Translations under genes and position numbers: made by a program
Assembly (NCBI RefSeq): GCF_027595985.1
Contig: NC_073313.1
Span: 104,613,052 to 104,677,051 of the forward strand
Length of the DNA: 64,000 nt
Origin: Sorex araneus
Taxonomy: Eukaryota; Chordata; Mammalia; Eulipotyphla; Soricidae
Reading direction: 5' to 3'
The notes under the pieces: generated by a model
Told to the model about the DNA's origin: nothing
What the model saw: the letters and a program-made list of their open reading frames with translations, nothing else
Databases searched by the model: none
In this document: piece by piece, positions 1,343 to 63,630 of the stretch
How positions within the stretch are numbered: position 1 is the stretch's first letter
How the letters are laid out: the number at the start of each line of letters is the position of its first letter

Positions 1343-1557
1343 TTCACTGTCACTGTCACTGTCATTCCGTTGCTCATCAATTTGCTCGAGCGGGCACAAG
1401 TAACGTCTCCATTGTGAGACTTGTTACTGTTTTTGGCATATCGAATACGTCATGGGTAGTTTACCAGGCTCTGCCGTGCAGGCGAGATACTCTCGGTAGC
1501 TTGCCGGGCTCTCCGAGAGGGACAGAGGAATCGAACCTGGGTCAGCCGCATGCTAGA
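1343..1557 (-). mobile_element. RTE-tailed SINE (type 1), 5'-truncated
   Basis: Read on the minus strand, this has a SINE body containing 'cggagagcccggcaagctac', a 'tatgccaaaaacagtaac' segment, then 'caatggagacgttact', and ends in a tandem CAGTGA-type tail (1343-1363 on the plus strand as CACTGT repeats). The last 60 bases resemble the 3' end of the RTE LINE at 5804-7300. It interrupts the old L1. The tRNA head is only partly present. Confidence 0.85.
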
Positions 1558-5030: not shown

Positions 5031-5690
5031 GATCACTTGAATCACTTATCACTTGTTTTCCCCTTGATCTTCGATTTGCTCAAGTGGGTGCCAGTAGCAT
5101 CTCCATTCGTCCCTGTCACGTACTAGTGTAGCCCAATTATATCTGCTTCCTCCAGGAACAGGAAGAGCCTCAGACCATTCATTCAGGATTTTGACGAAGA
5201 AGTCTGGCCATCTCATAGGTGGGTGGCCACGCCATCATTTGACGTCCCATGGAATTCAGTTGGTAAAAGCTCTAGTCCAGTGGTCGTCTCTGAATCGCAT
5301 TACATGTCTGGTCCATCTGATTTTTGACGCCTTGGCAAAGGAAACAGCGTCCCTGATTCTTGGTCATCAATGGAGGTGAGAGCTCCAGATTCCTTCTCTC
5401 ACTTGAGTGAAATATGATACTCCAAGCATAGCTCTTACAATTCCTCTTTGGGATACCCGAATAACATTCTCATTCTGTTACCGTAGGGCCCAGGTCTCTG
5501 AGGCGTATGTTAGTGCAGGAAGAATGGTGGAGTTGAAAATATGTGCCCAGAGCCGGAGCTTCTTCATCCTCTTAACCAGTTCTTCAATGCTCTTGAAGGC
5601 ATTCAACGCTGCTCTCTTCCTCCTGTGCCATTCTGGCACCAAATCATTCCTCATATTGAGTTCTCGACCCAGATTCTCCCTTCCGAAATC
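5031..5690 (-). mobile_element. RTE LINE, 3' fragment, minus strand
   Basis: Minus-strand reading gives the C-terminal part of an RTE polyprotein: an open stretch (5690 down to about 5470) starting near 'LGRELNM', with 'KRMKKLRLWAHIFN' and 'LPALTYASETWAL', homologous to 6681-6880 of the plus-strand copy. It continues through several frameshifts to the 3' tail at 5031-5056 (AAGTGAT-type repeats in reverse). RTE proteins join an endonuclease to a reverse transcriptase; only the region after the reverse transcriptase remains. Not functional. Confidence 0.85.
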
Positions 5691-5694
5691 CGAC

Positions 5695-5803
5695 ACGCCA
5701 TTTTGTCGGTGAAGGCATGGGTGTTTCATCATTGTGTCATTGAAACCCAAATATGGAAGCTTATAACTATCTCACAGTGATTCGATAATTTTTTTTTAAA
5801 AAA
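5695..5803 (+). mobile_element. L1 3' terminus, right half
   Basis: Contains 'catgggtgtttcatcattgt', 'gaaacccaaatatggaagct' and 'ctatctcacagtgattcgat' followed by T- and A-rich sequence, the standard end of the shrew L1s here (compare 25500-25604). It is probably the continuation of 4590-4737. Confidence 0.8.
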
Positions 5804-7300
5804 GAAGCGTACAGCACCTGGTCCAGACAAGGTCAGACCTAAACACCTGAAGAATCTGCCTCCAGTATTCGTCAATACACTGGCTCGGCCCTTCACATGC
5901 TACCTGTCTAAATGCAAGGTTCCATCCCAATGGAAAACCAGTAGGACTTTCCTGTTGTACAAGAAGGGAGACATCCACGACACTAGTAACTATCCCCTGA
6001 TCTGCCAGTTTTCTGGCATCTACAAGTTATTCACATGAGTCATCCCGAATAGGATTGGCAGAACACTAGATGAAGGACAACCATGTGAGCAAGCCAGGTT
6101 CTGAAAAGGATTCAGCACGATTGGCCATATCCACATGGTGACCAAGCTCATTGAGGTTTCGTGAGAGTTCAAGATACCACTCTGTCTAATATTCATTGAT
6201 TTAAAGAAGGCCTTTGATTCTGTTGAGACTGAAGAAATTATCCAAACCTTAGCCAAACAGGGTGTTCAAACTCAATACATCAGGATCCTCCATGAGCTGT
6301 ATTACAGATTCACCACCAGGATCTCATCATTCTACAAAGAAGTGATCATCGATATAAGGAGAGGGTTTCAGCAGGGCGACACCATTTCACTGAAAGTCTT
6401 CAGTGCCACCCTCGAGAACATCATGCGACGACTGAAATGGAAACAAATGGGAGTGAAGATAGACAGTCGGCAACTACACCACATCCGCTTTGCTGATGAC
6501 ATCATTCTCATAACACCAAATTATCAGCCAAGTGGCATGAATGCTGGCGACTTCGACCGTGAGTGTGGAAAGGTCGGACTGCAGCTGAATCTCACGAAGA
6601 CAATGTTCATGAGAAATGGGCTAGTTCCTGATGTTCTATTTGACCTCAACGGAACGAACATCTCCGAATGTAGCAGTTAAGTGTACCTAGGTCGAGAACT
6701 CAATATGACGAATGACTTGGCACCTGATCTATGCAGGAGGAAGAGAGCAGCGTGGGATGCCTCCAAGAGCATCGAAGAAGTGGTTAAAAGGATGAAGAAC
6801 CTCTGGCTCCAGGCACATCTTTTCGACTCCACCATTCTTCCTGCACTAACATACGCTTCAGAGACCTGGGCCCTACAAAAACAGGATGAAAACGCTATTC
6901 GGGTATCCCAAAGAGCGATGCTTGGAGTATCATGTTTCATTCAAGTGAGAGAAGGAATCCGGAGTTCCAACCTTCGCCGATGATCAAGAATCAGGGACGC
7001 TGTCTCCTTTGTCAAGGTGTCAAAAATCAGATGAGCCAGACACGTAATCCGATTTAGAGATGACCGCTAGACTAGAGCTGTTACCGAGTGGATTCCACAG
7101 GACGTCAAAAGACCACGTGGACATGGTCAGACTTCTTCGTCAAGACCCTGAATGAATGATTTGAGGCTCTTTGTGTTACTGGAGCGAGCAGCCGCCATTG
7201 GGCTACACTAGCACACAACAGGGACGAATGGAGACATTACTGGCGTCAGCGCGAACAAATGGAAGAACAACTGGATGACAAGTGATACAAGTTATACAAG
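5804..7300 (+). pseudogene. RTE LINE, reverse transcriptase to 3' end, degenerate
   Basis: Translated in the frame of 6342, this gives a long stretch of RTE reverse transcriptase: 'APGPDKVRPKHLKNLPP' near the start, 'LLYKKGDIHDTSNYPLIC', 'IFIDLKKAFDSVET' (motif A region), 'RRGFQQGDTIS' (motif B) and the catalytic FADD at 6489-6500. In-frame stops include TGA 6036-6038, TAA 6678-6680 and TGA 6981-6983; a frameshift follows near 7120, and the C-terminus reads 'RDEWRHYWRQREQMEEQLDD' before TGA. There is almost no 3' UTR, only ACAAGT-type repeats (7268-7300), as expected for RTE. The 5' end and the endonuclease are missing. The closest families I know are nematode RTEs and the related element reported in the common shrew. 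Confidence 0.9.
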
Positions 7301-8190
7301 TGTTATAATTTGTAAAAGAATGGTCAAAAATGTTTTCTTAGAATGGGGCTTGAGCAATAGCACAGTGAGTAGGGCGTTTTCCTTGTGCACGGCCGGCCCA
7401 CATTTGATTTCCAGCATCCCATATGGTCCCCCAGCAAGGCCAGGAGTAATTCCTGAGTACATGAGCCAGGAGTAACCCCTGTGCATCGCCAGGTGTGACC
7501 CCAAAAGAAAAATAATGTTTTCTTAGAATAAAGTTAGTGAAGATTATGTATCTCAACATGGAGCTATTAATCCCTGCATAAGAGATCACCAAGATGTTGT
7601 TACAGGTTAAGCCTTCTGTGTTGATTTTGTTAATTGAGATTGCATGCCTTCTACATCCCATTCAATCCAATCTGGTGTGCTACTCCTGGTTTATCAGTGT
7701 TATAGAGGTTGAGGGGTCATGAGTTCCACAAAGCCCAAAATTTTTAACGAGGTGATACAGCTGGAGTTAAATTTTTAACTGGGTGGTGTTTGGGGGCATA
7801 AGCATGACTGCCAGGGTTTCTGGAAGTACAAGGAGATGGGAGAAGATAATACATCCCCGACTCTGTGAAAACCTGGAGATTTCAGTCACAAAATCTGCAT
7901 ACCTGAGTTTTTCAGCAGATTAATTTCTGGATGAGGCTCATCTTGAACAGAGGAGTCCGGCCAGAAGCATGGCACGATTGTGGAGTGTGGAGGTTTTCAG
8001 ATAAGGGGACTCTGGGTGAGCACTGGGCTCCTCCTCTCCTCCCTCCCACCCCTAGCTCCAGAATATCCTGGACAACTCAGCCTTTCATGGGGTCCAGAAG
8101 AATCTATAATACTTGTTGATCTCTTTTGATATTTATTTATGAATCTCTGGGTCATGGCCCGTGTAAGAGTGTATATCTTCATATAATTTT
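7300..8190 (-). repeat. Family A noncoding repeat (host of a SINE)
   Basis: Blocks such as 'aagatgttgttacag', 'ggtgtgctactcctggt', 'cagctggagttaaattttta' and 'cctggagatttcagtcac' recur in the same order at 54480-55500 and, partly, at 57530-58150 and 35150-35520. The copy has no long open frame. In related copies the minus-strand 3' end is an L1-like terminus, so orientation is assigned as minus. Confidence 0.65.
7328..7529 (+). mobile_element. A-tailed shrew SINE with target-site duplication
   Basis: SINE 7344-7513 is full length and flanked by AATGTTTTCTTAGAAT at 7328-7343 and 7514-7529 (16/16 identical). It is inserted in family A; removing it restores the 'gttttcttagaa' clause found at 54509-54520. 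Confidence 0.95.
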
Positions 8191-15955: not shown

Positions 15956-16228
15956 TGGAGTAGCACTGTAGAACTGTCATAGCACTGTCGTTCCATTGTT
16001 CATTGATTTGCTTGACCGGGCACCAGTAACCTCTCCATTGTGACACTTATTGTTACTGTTTTTGGCAGTAACAACAAGTTGAATACACCACGGGTAGCTT
16101 GTCAGGCTCTGCCGTGCGGGCAGGATACTCTCGGTAGCTTGCCAGGCTCTCCAAAAGGGATGAAGGAATTGAACCCGGGTTGGCTGCGTGCAAGGCAAAT
16201 GCCCTATTCTCTGTGCTATCGCTCCTGG
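15956..16228 (-). mobile_element. RTE-tailed SINE (type 1), left arm of an inverted pair
   Basis: Complete on the minus strand: tandem tail at the left (GTAGCACTGT-like), the RTE-derived end, the body, then the tRNA-like head up to 'gtgctatcgctcc' at 16216-16228. The head still contains a B-box-like GGGTTCAATTCC in reverse. Confidence 0.9.
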
Positions 16229-16424
16229 GTTCAATTCCTCTGTCCCTCTTGGAGAGCCCAGCAAGCTACCGAGAGTATCCCGCCCAAGGCAGAGTCTGGC
16301 AAGCTACCCTGGCGTATTCGATATGCCAAAAACAGTAACAACAAGTTTCACAATGGAGACATTACTGGTGCCCGCTAAAGCAAATCAATGAACAATGGGA
16401 CAACAGTGCTACAGTGCTACAGTG
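16229..16424 (+). mobile_element. RTE-tailed SINE (type 1), right arm of an inverted pair
   Basis: Begins exactly at the B-box region ('gggttcaattcctctg') directly after the head of the left arm, and runs through body and RTE-like end ('aatggagacattactgg' at 16346-16362) to ACAGTGCT tandem repeats (16400-16424). The first part of the head is missing. Confidence 0.92.
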
Positions 16425-16439
16425 CTCACTTTCCAATTT

Positions 16440-18885: not shown

Positions 18886-19261
18886 TTAAGAATTATTGAC
18901 AAAAACTAGAGTTTCTGCATAAGAATGAATAAACTATTGGAGATTAGTATAATTTTAAACAACTTGGTTGAAGACCATACCATATGTTTGTTTTATGTTT
19001 AAGAGATTCAAGAGACTGTCATTAAGCTAATTAATTACCTGAAACAATGTGGAAGACTGCATCATGATGTAAGTGAAATATTTACTTCTCTCTCTCCTTT
19101 GTGCTTTTAGTATTTTTTTGTTTCAGGCAATGTCTTGTTTGCATAGACACAGACAACAATTTGATAATTCATTAACTCCAAAGTACTAATGTGTGGGTGG
19201 ATCCTGATGGATTCCTGGGCATTTGTCATATTAATTTAACTTAAGTTTTAGTTCACACATA

Positions 19262-19413
19262 CCCACGGGGAGATTGCCAGGCTCTGCCATGCAGGCGGGA
19301 TACTCTTGGTAGCTTGCTGGGCTCTCCGAGAGGGCCGGAGAAATTGAACCCGGGTCGGCTGTGTGCAAGGCAGATGCCTTACCCGCTGTGGTATGGCAGT
19401 AAACAGTGACAGT
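19262..19413 (-). mobile_element. RTE-tailed SINE with 5' inversion
   Basis: The head and half of the body are on the minus strand (19262-19395, head end at 'ccttacccgctgtggtat'), but instead of a tail on the left, plus-strand tail units (AACAGTGACAGTGATACAGTG) follow directly on the right at 19393-19413. This is the arrangement produced by twin priming. Confidence 0.7.
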
Positions 19414-20293
19414 GATACAGTGAAGTTCCAGTTACCCTAAGATTGGCCTTAATTCCTAACACCCTAAAATGTGGATCCCTTTCTGGGACTGGATGGACCC
19501 AGGGCAAACACATGCCACCCTGTCTTCAACACAGGAAGGCCTAAGGGCCCACAGGTAATCAGGGTGCTGCCTTGGGGCAGGTTCTGACCCAGAGGAAGAA
19601 TGCAACAATTGACAGGGACCCTATGGGTTTAGGAAAAGCTGAAACAAACTGCAGTCTGTAGTCTGAGGAGCACGACAGGATGTCTGCAGGAAAAGCCACT
19701 CTGCTCTAATCCTTTATCCCTGAGGCCAAAGAGCCTATTTAAACCCGATCTAAAGTGATTAGACAAAAGGAATTTGTATATTTCCTACTCTATTTATGTA
19801 GAATGCCTGGCAATATTTATCAGAGTATACCTGACTTGTTACTGTGCTTATTTAGTAGATAAGGTGGAAAGAAAACTGTTTCAGTAACATGCCTTTCTGT
19901 TATAAATTAGCACCAACAGCTATACAAATGATATTAAAAGTGTCCAATCTAATCAGAAGATTTGAGATATTCCAGTGGAGAAATCAAATGACTGATGATA
20001 ACAACCTAGTTTATGAGATATGTAGTAGTCTCTGACCTGGAAATGGTAGACTTGCCCAGCCGTCTGGATTTCAGCATACAGCTAAAACCAGTCCTGATCC
20101 AAGCAACTCCCTCCAACTGACTACCAGGAAAGAGTCTTGTAGCCCCTCTAAATCCATATCACCCTGCAACCTTACTCTGACCATGTACCAGAAGCTGATC
20201 AGTCAATACATGGTGAAAGGTTGAGGAGCACGACAGAAACACTAGAAGCCCCGTGGCTCCTCATTGTCATCCTCTCTTCTTGGTAGCAGAAGG

Positions 20294-20554
20294 AGTAGCA
20301 CTGTAGCACTGTAGCATTGTCGTCCCATTGTTCATCGATTTGCTCGAGCAGGCACCAGTAACATCTCCATTGTGTGAGACTTGTTGTTACTGTTTTTGGC
20401 ATATCAAATATGCCACAGGTAGTTTGCCAGGTACTGCCATGTAGGTGGAATACTCTCAATAGCTTTCCAGGCTCTCCAAGAGGGATGGAGGAATCGAACC
20501 CACGTTGGCCTTGTGCGAGGCAAACGCCCTACCTGCTGTACCATGGCTCCCGTC
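20294..20554 (-). mobile_element. RTE-tailed SINE (type 1), full length
   Basis: Minus strand: TAGCACTG tandem tail (20295-20318), RTE-like end with 'gctcgagcaggcaccagt' in complement, body, and a full tRNA-like head ending near 20552. Several CpG-to-TpG changes suggest moderate age. Confidence 0.92.
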
Positions 20555-20708
20555 CTGTAATCCTTTTTCTTGCGGCAGAGCTATCTGTTATGGTCTCTTT
20601 GATTGTTGGCCACCGGGAAGGCCCTACTGATCCTGCTGTATATTTATCTTTGCATCAATTTTTTCCTCCTGCAATATGGGTTTGAAAGTAGTGGGTGAGA
20701 CAGTGCCT

Positions 20709-22742: not shown

Positions 22743-23007
22743 CACTGTCACTGTCACTGTCATCCCATTGCTCATCGATTCGTTCGAGCGGGCACCAGTA
22801 ACGTGTCTCTTTAAGAGACTTATTGTTACTGTTTTTGGCATATCCAATATGCACAGGTAGCTTGCCAGGCTCTGCCGTGCGGGCTCCATACTCTCGGTAG
22901 CTTGCCGGGCTCTCCGAGAGGGGCGGAGGAATCGAACACGGGTTGGCCGAGTGAAAGGTGAAATCCCAACCGCTGTGCTATCGCTCCAGCCCACAAACAA
23001 ACTCAGT
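22732..23007 (-). mobile_element. RTE-tailed SINE (type 1) with target-site duplication
   Basis: ACAAACTCAGT at 22732-22742 and 22997-23007 flanks the element 22743-22996. Minus strand: CACTGT-type tail, RTE-like end, body and intact head. It is inserted at the right edge of the LTR-like block. Confidence 0.93.
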
Positions 23008-26194: not shown

Positions 26195-26490
26195 TTATTA
26201 GTATCATATTTATCGTCATCATATTTATCATCATCATCATCCTGTTGGTCGTTGATTTTCTCTAGCGGTCTCAGTAACGTCTCCATTCGTCCTAGCCCTG
26301 GGATTTTAGAAGACTCTCTTTACTTGGCCTTATAAATGGTGCTGCATTGGAGGCTCTTTCAGGGTCAGGAGAATGAGACCCATCATTGTTACTGGTTTTG
26401 GCATATGAATATGCCACGGGGAGCTTGCCAGGCTCTCCCATGCAGGCAGGAAACTCTCGGTAGCTTGTCAGGTTCTGCGAGAGGGAAGTA
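26195..26490 (-). mobile_element. RTE-tailed SINE (type 2)
   Basis: Left edge is an ATC-rich tail (26205-26240). On the minus strand it has the body, an additional segment of about 85 bp ('ctgaccctgaaagagcctcc' in complement, about 26290-26380), and the RTE-like end. The tRNA head is replaced or missing on the right. It shares this structure with 46602-46904. Confidence 0.85.
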
Positions 26491-26774: not shown

Positions 26775-27584
26775 AACATGCACTTTGGGCTGGAGCAATA
26801 GCACAACGGGTAGGGTGTTTGCCTTGCATGCGACCAAACCGGGTAAGATTTCTCAATTCTTCCATCCCTCTCGGAGAGCCCAGCAAGCTACCGAGAGTAT
26901 CTCGCCCACACGGCAGAGCCTGGCAATCTACCCATGGCGTATTTGATATGCCAAAAACAGTAACAAGAAGTCTCACAATGGTCAGGCATAGAAAGATCGC
27001 ATTCATCTGTGGAATATAAAATAACAGAGTGGGAGACTAAGACCCAAGAGTAGTAGACATCTACTACTGTGTGGTCTGTCCCACAGCTTGGAAACTGGCC
27101 TTACATGCTGGGGGAAAAAGCAGCTGAGGTAGAGAAGGGAACACCAAGTAGAGGATGCTGGGAGGACCCATTCGGGTTGGAAGATGTGAACTGAAAGTAG
27201 ACTATAGACCGAACATGAAAGCCACTCAATACCTCTATTGCAAACTACAACACCCAAAAGGAGAGAGAACAAAAGGGAATGCCCTGCCACAGAGGCAGGG
27301 TGGGGTGGTGGGGGATGGGGTGAGGGTGGTGAGAGGGATACTGGGATCATTGGTGGAGGTGAATGGGCACTCGTGGAGGGATGGGTAAACGATCACTGTA
27401 TGAGTGAAATGCAAACACAAAAGTTCATGAGTTTGTAACTGTACATCACAGTGATTCTCTAATAAAAAATTTTTTTAAAAAAGAAGTCTCACAATGGAGA
27501 TGTTACTTGTGTACACTCGAGCTATTCGATGAACAATGGGATGACAGTGATACAGTGATGACAGTGATACAGTGAACATGCACT
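26775..27584 (+). mobile_element. RTE-tailed SINE (type 1), split by an L1
   Basis: The SINE occupies 26787-26981 and 27481-27574, flanked by AACATGCACT (26775-26784, 27575-27584). The head is complete ('gggctggagcaatagcacaa'), the body is intact, and the 3' end carries GACAGTGATACAGT tandem repeats (27542-27574) like those of the RTE LINE. An L1 interrupts it in the 'caatgg' of the RTE-like end. Confidence 0.95.
26965..27497 (+). mobile_element. L1 3' fragment with perfect 17-bp target-site duplication
   Basis: AAGAAGTCTCACAATGG is repeated at 26965-26981 and 27481-27497. The insert 26982-27480 comprises the ORF2 end and the 3' UTR with 'aggagagagaacaaaaggga', the G-rich segment and an A-rich tail. 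It lies within the RTE-tailed SINE and is therefore younger than it. Confidence 0.97.
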
Positions 27585-34657: not shown

Positions 34658-35018
34658 TTTTTCTTTTTTTAAGGGTCACACCCAGTGATGCTGAGGGGTT
34701 ACTCCTGGCTCTGCACTCAGGAATTACTCCTGGAAGTGCTGGGGGACCATATGGGATGCTGGAGATCGAACCTGGGTCAGCCTCATGCAAGGCAAACGCC
34801 CTACCCGCTGTGCTATCACCCTAGCCCTTTTGGATTATTTTATTTATTTATTTTTGGGGGGGTCACACCTGGCAATGCACAGTGCTTGCTCCTGGATCTG
34901 CACTCAAGAAGCACTCCTGGAGGTGCTCAGAGGACCATATGGGATGCTGGGAATTGAACCCGGGTCGACCACGTGCAAGGCAAATGCCTTACCCGCTGTG
35001 CTATCACTTCAGCCCCTT
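34658..35018 (-). mobile_element. Two adjacent young A-tailed SINEs
   Basis: 34658-34828 and 34843-35018 are both near consensus with T-rich leaders. The clause TTTTGGATT(A)TTTT before the first copy and again between the two fits a target-site duplication of the first. Confidence 0.93.
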
Positions 35019-40840: not shown

Positions 40841-41016
40841 ATACCTATCTTGGGGCTGAAGTGATAGCACAGCCGTAGCGACCTGGGTTCGATTCCCAGC
40901 ATCCCATATGGTCCCCTGAGCACGGCCAGGGATAATTCCTGAGTGCAAAGCCAGGAGTGACCCCTGAGCATCGCTGGGTGTGACCCAAAAAGCAAAAAAA
41001 AAATATACCTATCTTG
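40841..41016 (+). mobile_element. A-tailed shrew SINE with internal deletion and target-site duplication
   Basis: ATACCTATCTTG flanks it (40841-40852, 41005-41016). The head lacks about 27 bp between 'agcacagc' and 'gcgacctgggttcg', removing the middle of the tRNA-like part while both box-like segments remain. Otherwise near consensus. Confidence 0.94.
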
Positions 41017-46215: not shown

Positions 46216-47490
46216 TGCAGCTTATTATTTATTTATTATTAGTCACTATGAAATTACAAACTTATTCCTGATTGGGTTTCAGGCATTCAGTGTTTCAACA
46301 CTGGTCCCCTTCCCTGGGGTCCAATTTCCTTTACCAATAAGTTTTGGCACTGTGGTTTGGGGTTTCTAGTACTGTTGCTGAGAGAGTTTCATACATAACA
46401 TTTTATCACCTTTCAGCACCAGCTCCTTCTCCAGGTTGAACACTTCCTCCACCATAGTCATTGCCCTCTCACTGTCCTGTCCCCCGGCCTCTTGAATGGC
46501 ATGTTTCCTACTGAACACCAGTTCTTATGTTTATTTCTGTTGTTTTTGGGTATTCCTTATCCCACTATTACATTGTTTCTTTATATCTTGTATATGAGAT
46601 ATAATATACAGCCTCGTGACACCTTATAGCCTACTTCTGTCTCTGGGATAACCTGGCAAGCTACCAAGAGTTTCCTGCCCACACGGGAGAGCCTTGCAAA
46701 CTCCCCACGGCGTATTCATATGCCAAAACCAGTAACAATGATGGGTCTCATTCCCCTGACCCTGAAAGAGCCTCCAATGTGGCACCATTGGAAAGGACAA
46801 GTAAAGAGAGGCTTCTAAAATTACAGGGCTAGGACTAATGGAGACGTTACTGAGACTGCTCGAGAAATTCGACCATCAACAGAATGGTGATGATGATGAT
46901 GATGATATGAGATAGATCACCCGGTATCTCTCTCCCTCTGACTTAACTTACTCAGCCTGGTATGCTCCAGGTCCCTCCATGTAGCAGCAAATTTCATGAC
47001 TTTATCTTTTCTTATATAATGCCGAATATTATTCCATTGCGTATATGTACCCTAGTTTTTTTATCCACCCATCTATTCTGGGACATTTGGTTGCTTCCAC
47101 ATTTGGGCTATTGTGGATAGTGCTGCAAGGAACATAGGGGTGCAAATGTCTTTTCTCCATTGGGAGGGGGCTCGAGGTATATTCCAAGAAGTGAGGTTGC
47201 TGTGTCAAGTGGAAGATCAATTCCTAGACTTTTTAGGAATGTCCATATTGTTTTCTAGAGAGGATGGACTAGTCGACATTCTCACCAGCAGTGAATGAGA
47301 GTCCCTTTCTCCCTGCATTCAATGCAGCACTGGTTGTTCTTGTTTGTTTTGATGTTTGTCAGTCTCTGTGAGATGATTCCTCATTGTTTTTATTTCCATC
47401 TCCCTGATGATTAGTGATGCAGCTTTTTGTTCATGTGCCTTTTGGCTGTTTGATTTCTTCCTTGAGGAAGTTTCTGTTTGTCTCTTCTCA
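46216..47490 (-). mobile_element. L1 3' fragment split by a SINE
   Basis: Minus strand: ORF2 late block (about 47290-47430), 'cattgcgtatatgtacccta' and 'ggctattgtggatagtgctg' (ORF2 end), and the 3' UTR 46216-46600. 5'-truncated at about 0.97 kb without the SINE. An old copy. Confidence 0.88.
46592..46914 (+). mobile_element. RTE-tailed SINE (type 2) with GAT tail
   Basis: ATATGAGATA flanks it (46592-46601, 46905-46914). The body 'ggcaagctaccaagagtttc' and 'catatgccaaaaccagtaac' is followed by the extra segment with 'ctgaaagagcctccaatgtg', then 'aatggagacgttactgagac' (RTE-like end) and a GATGAT tail (46885-46904). Confidence 0.88.
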
Positions 47491-59442: not shown

Positions 59443-59698
59443 TGGCGGGGAGCAATAGCATAGCGGGTAGGGTGTTTGCCTTGCATGCGGCCAACCGGGG
59501 TTCAATTCCTCCGTCCCTCTCGGAGAGCCTGCAAGCTACCGAGAGTATCCCTCCCGAATGGCAGAGCCTGGCAAGCAACCCATGGCATATTCAGTATGTC
59601 AAAAAAACACTAACAACAAGTCTCACAATGGAGACGTTACTGGTGCCTGCTCCAGCAAATCAATGAACAATAGAAAGACAGTGCTTCAGTGCTACATT
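59443..59698 (+). mobile_element. RTE-tailed SINE (type 1), sense orientation, near PRPS1 exon 2
   Basis: Complete head ('gagcaatagcatagcgggta'), body, RTE-like end ('caatggagacgttactggtg' at 59625-59644) and GTGCTTCAGTGCTACA tail. TACATTG flanks it. It ends 172 bp before the exon 2 acceptor. Confidence 0.94.
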
Positions 59699-59799
59699 GT
59701 GGGGGATGTCCTGAAGGCAAAGTCGGAGCTGTGGTGCATGCATATATAGCCCATTTACAACATACCAGTAGGGCTGCTGCACTTGTTAGACCTTACTGA

Positions 59800-63328: not shown

Positions 63329-63630
63329 TAAAAAATCATATTAAATTAAATACATAAATAATTCAGAAATGTCACTGTCATCCCGTTGCTCATCGATTTG
63401 TTCGAGCGGGCACCAGTAACGTCTCTCATTGAGAGACTTATTGTTACTGTTTTTGGCATATCCAATACGCACGGGTAGCTTGCCAGGCTCTGCCGCACAG
63501 GCTCAGTACTCTCGGTAGCTTGCCGGGCTCTCCGAGAAGGGCGGAGGAATCGAACTGGGTCGGCTGCATGAAAGGCAAACGCCCAACCGCTGTGCTATAA
63601 AAAATTATATTAAATTAAATACATAAATAA
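63329..63630 (-). mobile_element. RTE-tailed SINE (type 1) with unusually long target-site duplication
   Basis: Direct repeats of 33 bp at 63329-63361 and 63598-63630 (one mismatch, A/T-rich) flank the minus-strand SINE about 63372-63597. It has a CACTGT-type tail, the RTE-like end, the body and the tRNA-like head with a short deletion. Confidence 0.92.

Follow-up and report, generated by a model that had tools for sequence, protein, structure and literature searches.

In the shrew Sorex araneus, SINE copies were identified whose 3' end is, by sequence comparison, homologous to the last coding piece of an RTE LINE with affinity to RTE proteins of strongylid nematodes. The SINE is very probably composed of a tRNA-Ala head, a 3' end of the RTE1_Sar type (about 60 nt of former C-terminal codons followed by a tandem tail) and a body for which the 5' end of this LINE is the most likely source, and it would be moved by this RTE. 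The comparisons directly support that the 3' ends are homologous, that the RTE has its relatives in nematodes and that two longer, related elements contain an RTE 5' piece. The statements on the family are based on one stretch of 64 kb, which was analysed as a whole and is called the window here; it contains nine short and two long elements.

Two decayed copies of the RTE LINE are present in the window. The plus-strand copy at 5802..7310, the end of which is approximate, extends from the RT domain to the C-terminus. An RVT_1 domain was identified in it with an E value of 2.7e-20, and its frame closes with HNRDEWRHYWRQREQMEEQLDDK, followed by TGA at 7283-7285, with the tandem tail starting directly after the stop. 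The minus-strand copy at 5034..5672 comprises the C-terminal part and was the query that found the nematode relatives. Within 5034-7310, the two copies are arranged in opposite orientation with an A-tailed fragment (about 5718-5800) between them. The plus copy may begin upstream of this fragment, as indicated by a weak profile match (4.3 bits) at 5670-5717.

The similarity between the SINE and the RTE is evident on the nucleotide level. The window contains the 17-mer AATGGAGACATTACTGG at two places, 7227-7243 in the RTE and 16352-16368 in the SINE; the identity had been reported in the earlier note and stands, while the positions given there, 16346-16362 and 7219-7235, are off by 6-8 nt. With the plus RTE copy as query, seven further elements were found by blastn on both strands, one of them long and the other six short SINE copies, with 75-82% identity over 57-63 aligned columns. 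The SINE consensus was shown to be 81% identical to the plus copy over 63 columns (E 9.4e-11) and 79% identical to the minus copy over 66 columns (E 1.4e-8); the Smith-Waterman scores were 34 and 32, with a maximum of 13 for each among 5000 random sequences. In an alignment of 12 tails, homology extends from AATGGAGA across the RTE stop into the tandem tail, as expected from the earlier proposal that the SINE end lines up with the last RTE codons, the stop and the tail. The reading GAGCAAATCGA claimed for the minus RTE copy is also present. A conserved RNA fold was not predicted for the shared 3' end (0 pairs).

For the protein level, a profile was built from 42 C-termini of strongylid-nematode RTEs, with no SINE included, and all six frames of the window were scanned with it; among the 120 fetched relatives of the minus copy, the motif was recognised close to the end of 46, of which 42 had sufficient length for the profile. 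The profile matched the minus RTE copy with 55.1 bits and the plus copy with 37.3 bits; eight SINE copies were matched as well, with 24.5, 21.5, 17.7, 16.2, 15.7, 14.9, 13.4 and 6.3 bits. All SINE matches lie inside profile positions 11-28, the same place as in the RTE copies. Other matches were found for one long element (7.3 bits, and separately 3.6 bits) and for one stray position (2.1 bits). Seven of the eight SINE matches exceed the best value of 20 random windows, 6.5 bits; the eighth, at 27492-27545 in a SINE split by an insertion, is below this maximum with its 6.3 bits and is not significant alone. The profile thus matched eight of the nine short copies in frame, the ninth (19259-19397) being without that region. 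The long element at 46605-46920 is absent among the listed matches, and its RTE 3' end was assigned by comparison with the second long element and with the consensus of the SINE.

Since the profile never included a SINE, these matches show that the SINE 3' end is former coding sequence from the C-terminus of the RTE; the central proposal of the earlier note is thereby supported. The consensus peptide WRRYWCPLEQIDEQ is identical to WRRYWRPLEQIDDQ from Nippostrongylus at 12 of 14 positions. Among the 19 hand-picked nematode proteins that were compared, the number of identities was 10-11 for Haemonchus, 10 for Heligmosomoides, 8-9 for Angiostrongylus, 7 for Necator and Parelaphostrongylus and 6 for Ancylostoma, and the motif terminates RTE proteins in seven nematode genera. 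The homology of its 3' end to the partner LINE is the feature by which the SINE belongs to those paired with LINEs of the RTE clade.

The copy described in the earlier note (16224..16426, plus strand; 17.7 bits) is missing most of its head, contains the RTE 3' end from 16352 and ends in ACAGTGCT repeats. It is joined head to head, within 15960-16426, to a copy with a tRNA-like head (15960..16225, minus strand; 13.4 bits), and the plus copy begins near its B box. A further plus-strand copy with head was identified at 59449..59699 (15.7 bits), with the RTE 3' end from 59627. Two minus-strand copies are of full length, one at 20295..20556 (16.2 bits) and one at 22743..22992 (14.9 bits), the latter with an (ACAGTG)n tail and the flanking repeat ACTGAGTTTGT. 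The minus-strand copy at 63373..63598, with 24.5 bits the top SINE in the profile search, has a flanking repeat of 33 bp with one mismatch. The minus-strand copy at 1345..1556 (21.5 bits) has a partial head and an (ACAGTG)n tail.

One plus-strand copy is divided by a later A-tailed insertion into head and body (26787..26981) and RTE 3' end with tail (27478..27570; 6.3 bits, as given above). The insertion (26982-27475) is L1-like, and GAAGTCTCACAATGG is repeated on both of its sides; the split SINE is therefore older than the A-tailed insertion. At 19259..19397 on the minus strand, head and body were identified without the RTE 3' end, and a SINE-type tail in forward orientation is present at about 19402-19420 on the plus strand. 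This arrangement of an inverted head and body followed by a forward tail (19259-19420) looks like a 5' inversion (twin priming) of a SINE.

The tRNA-like head is not confined to this family. ARAGORN identified a tRNA-Ala(TGC) in one of the nine SINE copies, at 59447-59521, and made the same call for the heads of four A-tailed SINEs. In the SINE consensus, the head contains motifs resembling the A and B boxes of pol III, as is found in tRNA-derived SINEs. The head consensus was matched at 46 places in the window. Eight of these belong to RTE-tailed SINEs, and many others coincide with A-tailed SINEs, the heads of which are up to 94% identical. One of these, at 7345..7515 on the plus strand, has a similar tRNA-like head, no RTE part and the flanking repeat AATGTTTTCTTAGAAT, identified by eye. 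The A-tailed SINEs are provisionally designated SOR-type by us; SOR has been described as a shrew T- SINE (PMC8466645). They differ from the RTE-tailed SINE in having another body, an A-rich 3' end and no RTE part; the possibility that the RTE-tailed SINE is one of them was rejected, as the bodies differ and only the head is common.

Primers and a probe specific for a SINE of the Soricidae have been published (PMC8608897, Table 1). In the window, the forward primer matches exactly at 40891 and the reverse primer at nine places, for example at 34698; the probe matches exactly nowhere, with one mismatch at best. The designation of the element as a shrew SINE is in agreement with these primer matches to SINEs of the window.

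Two long elements give information on the origin of the SINE body. The element at 46605..46920 (plus strand) has no recognisable tRNA head and consists of a SINE-type body, an RTE 5' piece (46722-46829, matched by the Haemonchus extension described below), the RTE 3' end (46837-46872, by the SINE consensus) and a (GAT)n tail; its 5' boundary was placed by eye from the flanking repeat ATATGAGATA. In the second, at 26200..26486 (minus strand; 7.3 bits in the profile search), the RTE 5' piece extends from 26402 to 26295 (26402-26295) and the RTE 3' end covers 26291-26236, followed by a (GAT)n-type tail. The two share 86.8% identity over 266 columns, and their bodies agree with that of the SINE at 88% and 83% of about 100 columns. 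Beyond the body, the long elements contain about 100 nt that the short SINE is without, and then the RTE 3' end.

Four of the fetched nematode RTE proteins, P0143 from Haemonchus and P0138, P0194 and P0230 from Necator, contain an in-frame stretch upstream of the usual start. The ORF of strongylid RTEs may thus start earlier than in the other proteins, and a relative of that stretch is kept in the long elements. In the window, the extension of Haemonchus P0143 gave good matches to the long elements only, with 61% identity over 36 residues (E 3.6e-11) and 56% identity (E 1.6e-9). The scores were 47.8 and 43.1 bits, while the four queries together reached no more than 27.7 bits in 50 random windows, and the next match in the window was at 0.41. 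From this match together with the RTE 3' end, it follows that the long elements are RTEs reduced to their two ends, headless like elements of the Bov-A2 type with LINE 5' and 3' ends. The RTE 5' assignment is thus based on a single protein, from Haemonchus.

The short SINE contains no more than about 25 nt of the significant P0143 match. For the upstream part of the body, the score against Necator P0138 was reached by 2 of 2000 shuffles for one long element and by 151 of 2000 for the other, which is weak, and the similarity was not significant for the short-SINE consensus (319 of 2000). When P0230 and P0194 were compared in this way, the first long element was the only one with a distinct score (12 and 34 of 2000 shuffles), and for two of the three Necator extensions the best matches in the window fall elsewhere (E 0.14 and 0.15). 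The short SINE has the tRNA head and the LINE 3' end of a Bov-tA-type architecture, with about 25 nt of significant 5' match in its body and weak similarity in the rest.

A possible, if rather doubtful, reading of these values is that the RTE contributed no more than the 3' end and a small part of the body, while roughly the first 85 nt of the latter came from elsewhere and were joined to RTE pieces in the long elements. The short-consensus upstream body, not significantly similar to the Necator extension, and the only weak similarity of one long element are in its favour. Against it, there is no break in either long element between the body and the significant match to Haemonchus, and the body of one of them matches the Necator extension in the expected order. 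Because of this unbroken passage, the whole body is preferred here as RTE 5' end: the short-SINE body of about 110 nt most likely derives from the 5' end of the LINE that also supplied the 3' end, and its first part, the remaining 85 nt or so, would share this origin.

The tails and the flanking sequences bear on the machinery by which the SINE was inserted. The RTE-tailed SINEs end in repeats of ACAGTG, ACAGTGAT or ACAGTGCT, comparable to ACAAGTGAT in the RTE, and are without poly(A); such a tandem tail in place of poly(A) is a feature of SINEs paired with RTE-clade LINEs. The different tail units, (GAT)n, ACAGTG, ACAGTGAT and ACAGTGCT, found across 46605-46920, 26200-26486, 1345-1556 and 27478-27570 may mark successive source elements. 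Flanking repeats were identified by script for three of the 11 elements, with 33 bp (63598-63373), 11 bp (22992-22743) and 10 bp (the long element at 46605-46920), and AACATGCACT was recognised by eye at the split SINE. At the remaining elements, one flanking repeat is doubtful (59449-59699), one is decayed as judged by eye (20295-20556), and none is clear elsewhere. The SINE is thus present in nine dispersed copies, with flanking target repeats among them. By eye, the target repeats start with a T-to-A step (T|A) at a few sites, which are too few and too ambiguous to be counted.

The tandem tails in place of poly(A) and the flanking repeats are supporting signs for insertion driven by the RTE. 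It is very unlikely that the RTE parts are passive, with the RTE sequence gained by template switching and the SINE moved by L1, as the A-tailed SINEs probably are. The tRNA-like head common with the A-tailed SINEs would fit such an origin, as would the A-tailed insertion held by one SINE, and LINE/small-RNA chimeras formed by template switching have been documented (PMC4476161). However, the RTE-tailed copies finish in ACAGTG-type repeats, RTE-type 3' ends are found in the short and the long family alike, and the pairing of SINEs with RTE-clade LINEs is a known pattern (PMC3747384). Since the SINE ends in the last coding piece of the RTE and probably also contains a piece of its front end, it likely spread on the copying machinery of the RTE.

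The divergence of the copies does not contradict this partnership, for which SINE copies older than the RTE would have been contrary evidence. The mean pairwise K2P distance was 0.171 (0.078-0.209) among seven SINE copies, 0.149 between the two long elements, 0.210 between the two RTE copies and 0.160 among ten chosen A-tailed SINEs; without CpG sites, it was 0.099, 0.110, 0.178 and 0.095, respectively. The distance of the nine SINE copies to their own consensus ranges from 0.07 to 0.16. Judged by 0.171 versus 0.210, in one window and with one RTE pair, the SINE is not older than the RTE.

The relatives of the RTE were identified at the protein level. With stops read as X, the minus copy found 338 relatives at E <= 1e-3, with a best identity of 62% among the best 120 of them. 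The RT part of the plus copy found 393; among the best 120 of these, named relatives reach 69%, a value obtained with Ancylostoma ceylanicum proteins, and one other protein reaches 70%. For both queries, all relatives bearing an organism name among the best 120 belong to Nippostrongylus, Necator, Heligmosomoides, Angiostrongylus, Haemonchus, Parelaphostrongylus or Ancylostoma, and the three of these genera that were looked up are placed in the superfamily Strongyloidea in the NCBI taxonomy. In a midpoint-rooted tree of both window copies and 33 proteins chosen from the matches, with no outgroup beyond these nematodes, both copies group with Nippostrongylus and Heligmosomoides (support 99/94). 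An element of this kind, RTE1_Sar, has been described by Dunemann and Wasmuth, who reported its horizontal transfer between strongylid nematodes and Sorex araneus and no hits in reads of hedgehog, solenodon and star-nosed mole (PMC6542046). The RTE of the window fits the RTE1_Sar type, and its sequence supports the nematode affinity.

It is highly improbable that the RTE was inherited vertically as an old LINE of mammals and resembles nematode elements through slow evolution or contamination. The rooting of the window tree leaves room for this reading, and decayed mammalian copies are rarely annotated as proteins, so that the searches favour nematodes. However, 69% identity to Ancylostoma ceylanicum over the RT part, and 70% to the one other protein, among the best 120 of 393, the published absence from the reads of the three other species (PMC6542046), and the decayed state of the RTE copies and their position among shrew SINEs speak against this reading. 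The preferred reading remains a nematode-derived RTE from which the SINE obtained its end. The reverse direction, in which the RTE got its 3' end from the SINE, would also explain the common sequence but is extremely improbable, as RTE proteins from seven genera of nematodes naturally end in this motif. Chance similarity between short sequences has a negligible probability, with profile, 5'-extension and Smith-Waterman scores above the random controls and the consensus alignments at E 9.4e-11 and 1.4e-8.

Searches were also made outside the window. Pattern scans for further SINE copies in viral contigs gave one stretch in each of two scans (L001 and L004) and none in a third, and a pattern scan of genome contigs gave two contigs of Pirellula MAGs (L002 and L003); all were taken as chance matches. 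A nematode RTE protein matched four stretches of viral contigs, none of which was confirmed (0 of 4), the RTE protein had one match with 26% identity in plasmid records, and the SINE had no match in phage records. Used as a protein query, the open frame of the SINE found six short proteins with 74-80% identity. A report on this SINE was not found in searches of the open-access literature, although an entry in Repbase, Dfam or SINEBase may exist; the word "SINE" is absent from the main text of PMC6542046 by word search, as are the words shrew and Sorex from PMC3747384. An RTE-paired SINE is of a known kind, and this shrew member seems to be undescribed in the open-access literature.

For the origin of the SINE, the following order of events is proposed. 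An RTE would have entered the shrew lineage from a strongylid nematode, as published for Sorex araneus and re-tested for its relationship in the present tree. An internal deletion would have produced a short element of RTE 5' and 3' ends, represented by the long elements. The SINE would then have arisen by the loss of about 100 nt more and by fusion to the tRNA-Ala-like head also used by the A-tailed SINEs, both presumably following the internal deletion. The expected pol III transcript of the SINE, promoted by its tRNA-like head, would end in the RTE-derived 3' part and the tail, so that the reverse transcriptase of the RTE could recognise the shared 3' end and insert the SINE RNA by target-primed reverse transcription; in this way, the RTE would move the SINE.

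If this is correct, a mammalian SINE family would be worm-derived except for its tRNA head, with some two thirds to three quarters of the sequence coming from the worm, and the birth of a SINE from a newly arrived RTE would be a repeatable outcome of horizontal transfer. A mammalian SINE on a worm-derived LINE would be a second case beside Bov-B/Bov-tA, and makes it possible to test whether RTE LINEs gained by horizontal transfer give rise to SINEs as a rule. Since a SINE cannot predate the RTE by which it is copied, its distribution among other shrews could help to date the RTE transfer. The SINE also shows a route from the last codons of an ORF to a non-coding tail.

In ruminants, the body of Bov-tA also contains Bov-B 5' sequence, and the shared 3' end of Bov-B is itself coding. 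The comparison with Bov-tA made in the earlier note may be closer than was claimed, as the related long elements also carry the RTE 5' end. RTE-tailed SINEs have been listed for marsupials, springhare, ruminants, horse and afrotherians (PMC3747384), and Bov-A2, RTESINE1 and RTE1-N1_LA are given as elements with a LINE 5' end (PMC3747384, Table 1). RTESINE1 from opossum and RTE1-N1_LA from elephant combine an RTE 5' end with an RTE tail, like the long elements, in other hosts and with other RTEs (Table 1 of PMC3747384). The Sauria SINE has the 3' end of an RTE-clade LINE, the reptilian Bov-B, and the tail repeats differ between SINE and LINE there; it differs in its reptile host and its Bov-B partner (PMC13295347). 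RTE1_Sar has the same shrew host, nematode relatives and tree neighbours as the RTE of the window (PMC6542046), the comparison being made on these three features.

The nearest parallels are Bov-A2 for the long elements and Bov-tA for the short SINE. Bov-A2 is composed of Bov-B 5' end and Bov-B tail, and the long elements are built alike; Bov-tA is composed of a tRNA head and the Bov-B tail (PMC3747384, Table 1), as the shrew SINE is of a tRNA head and the RTE 3' end. The SINE is not Bov-tA itself: its head is tRNA-Ala-like versus tRNA-Glu, its partner a strongylid-type RTE versus Bov-B, and its host another. The Bov-B LINE was also acquired horizontally, according to PMC8620236, as has been published for the shrew RTE. 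After the transfer from nematode to shrew, the path of ruminant Bov-B has probably been repeated, from a LINE through a headless two-end element to a tRNA-headed SINE.
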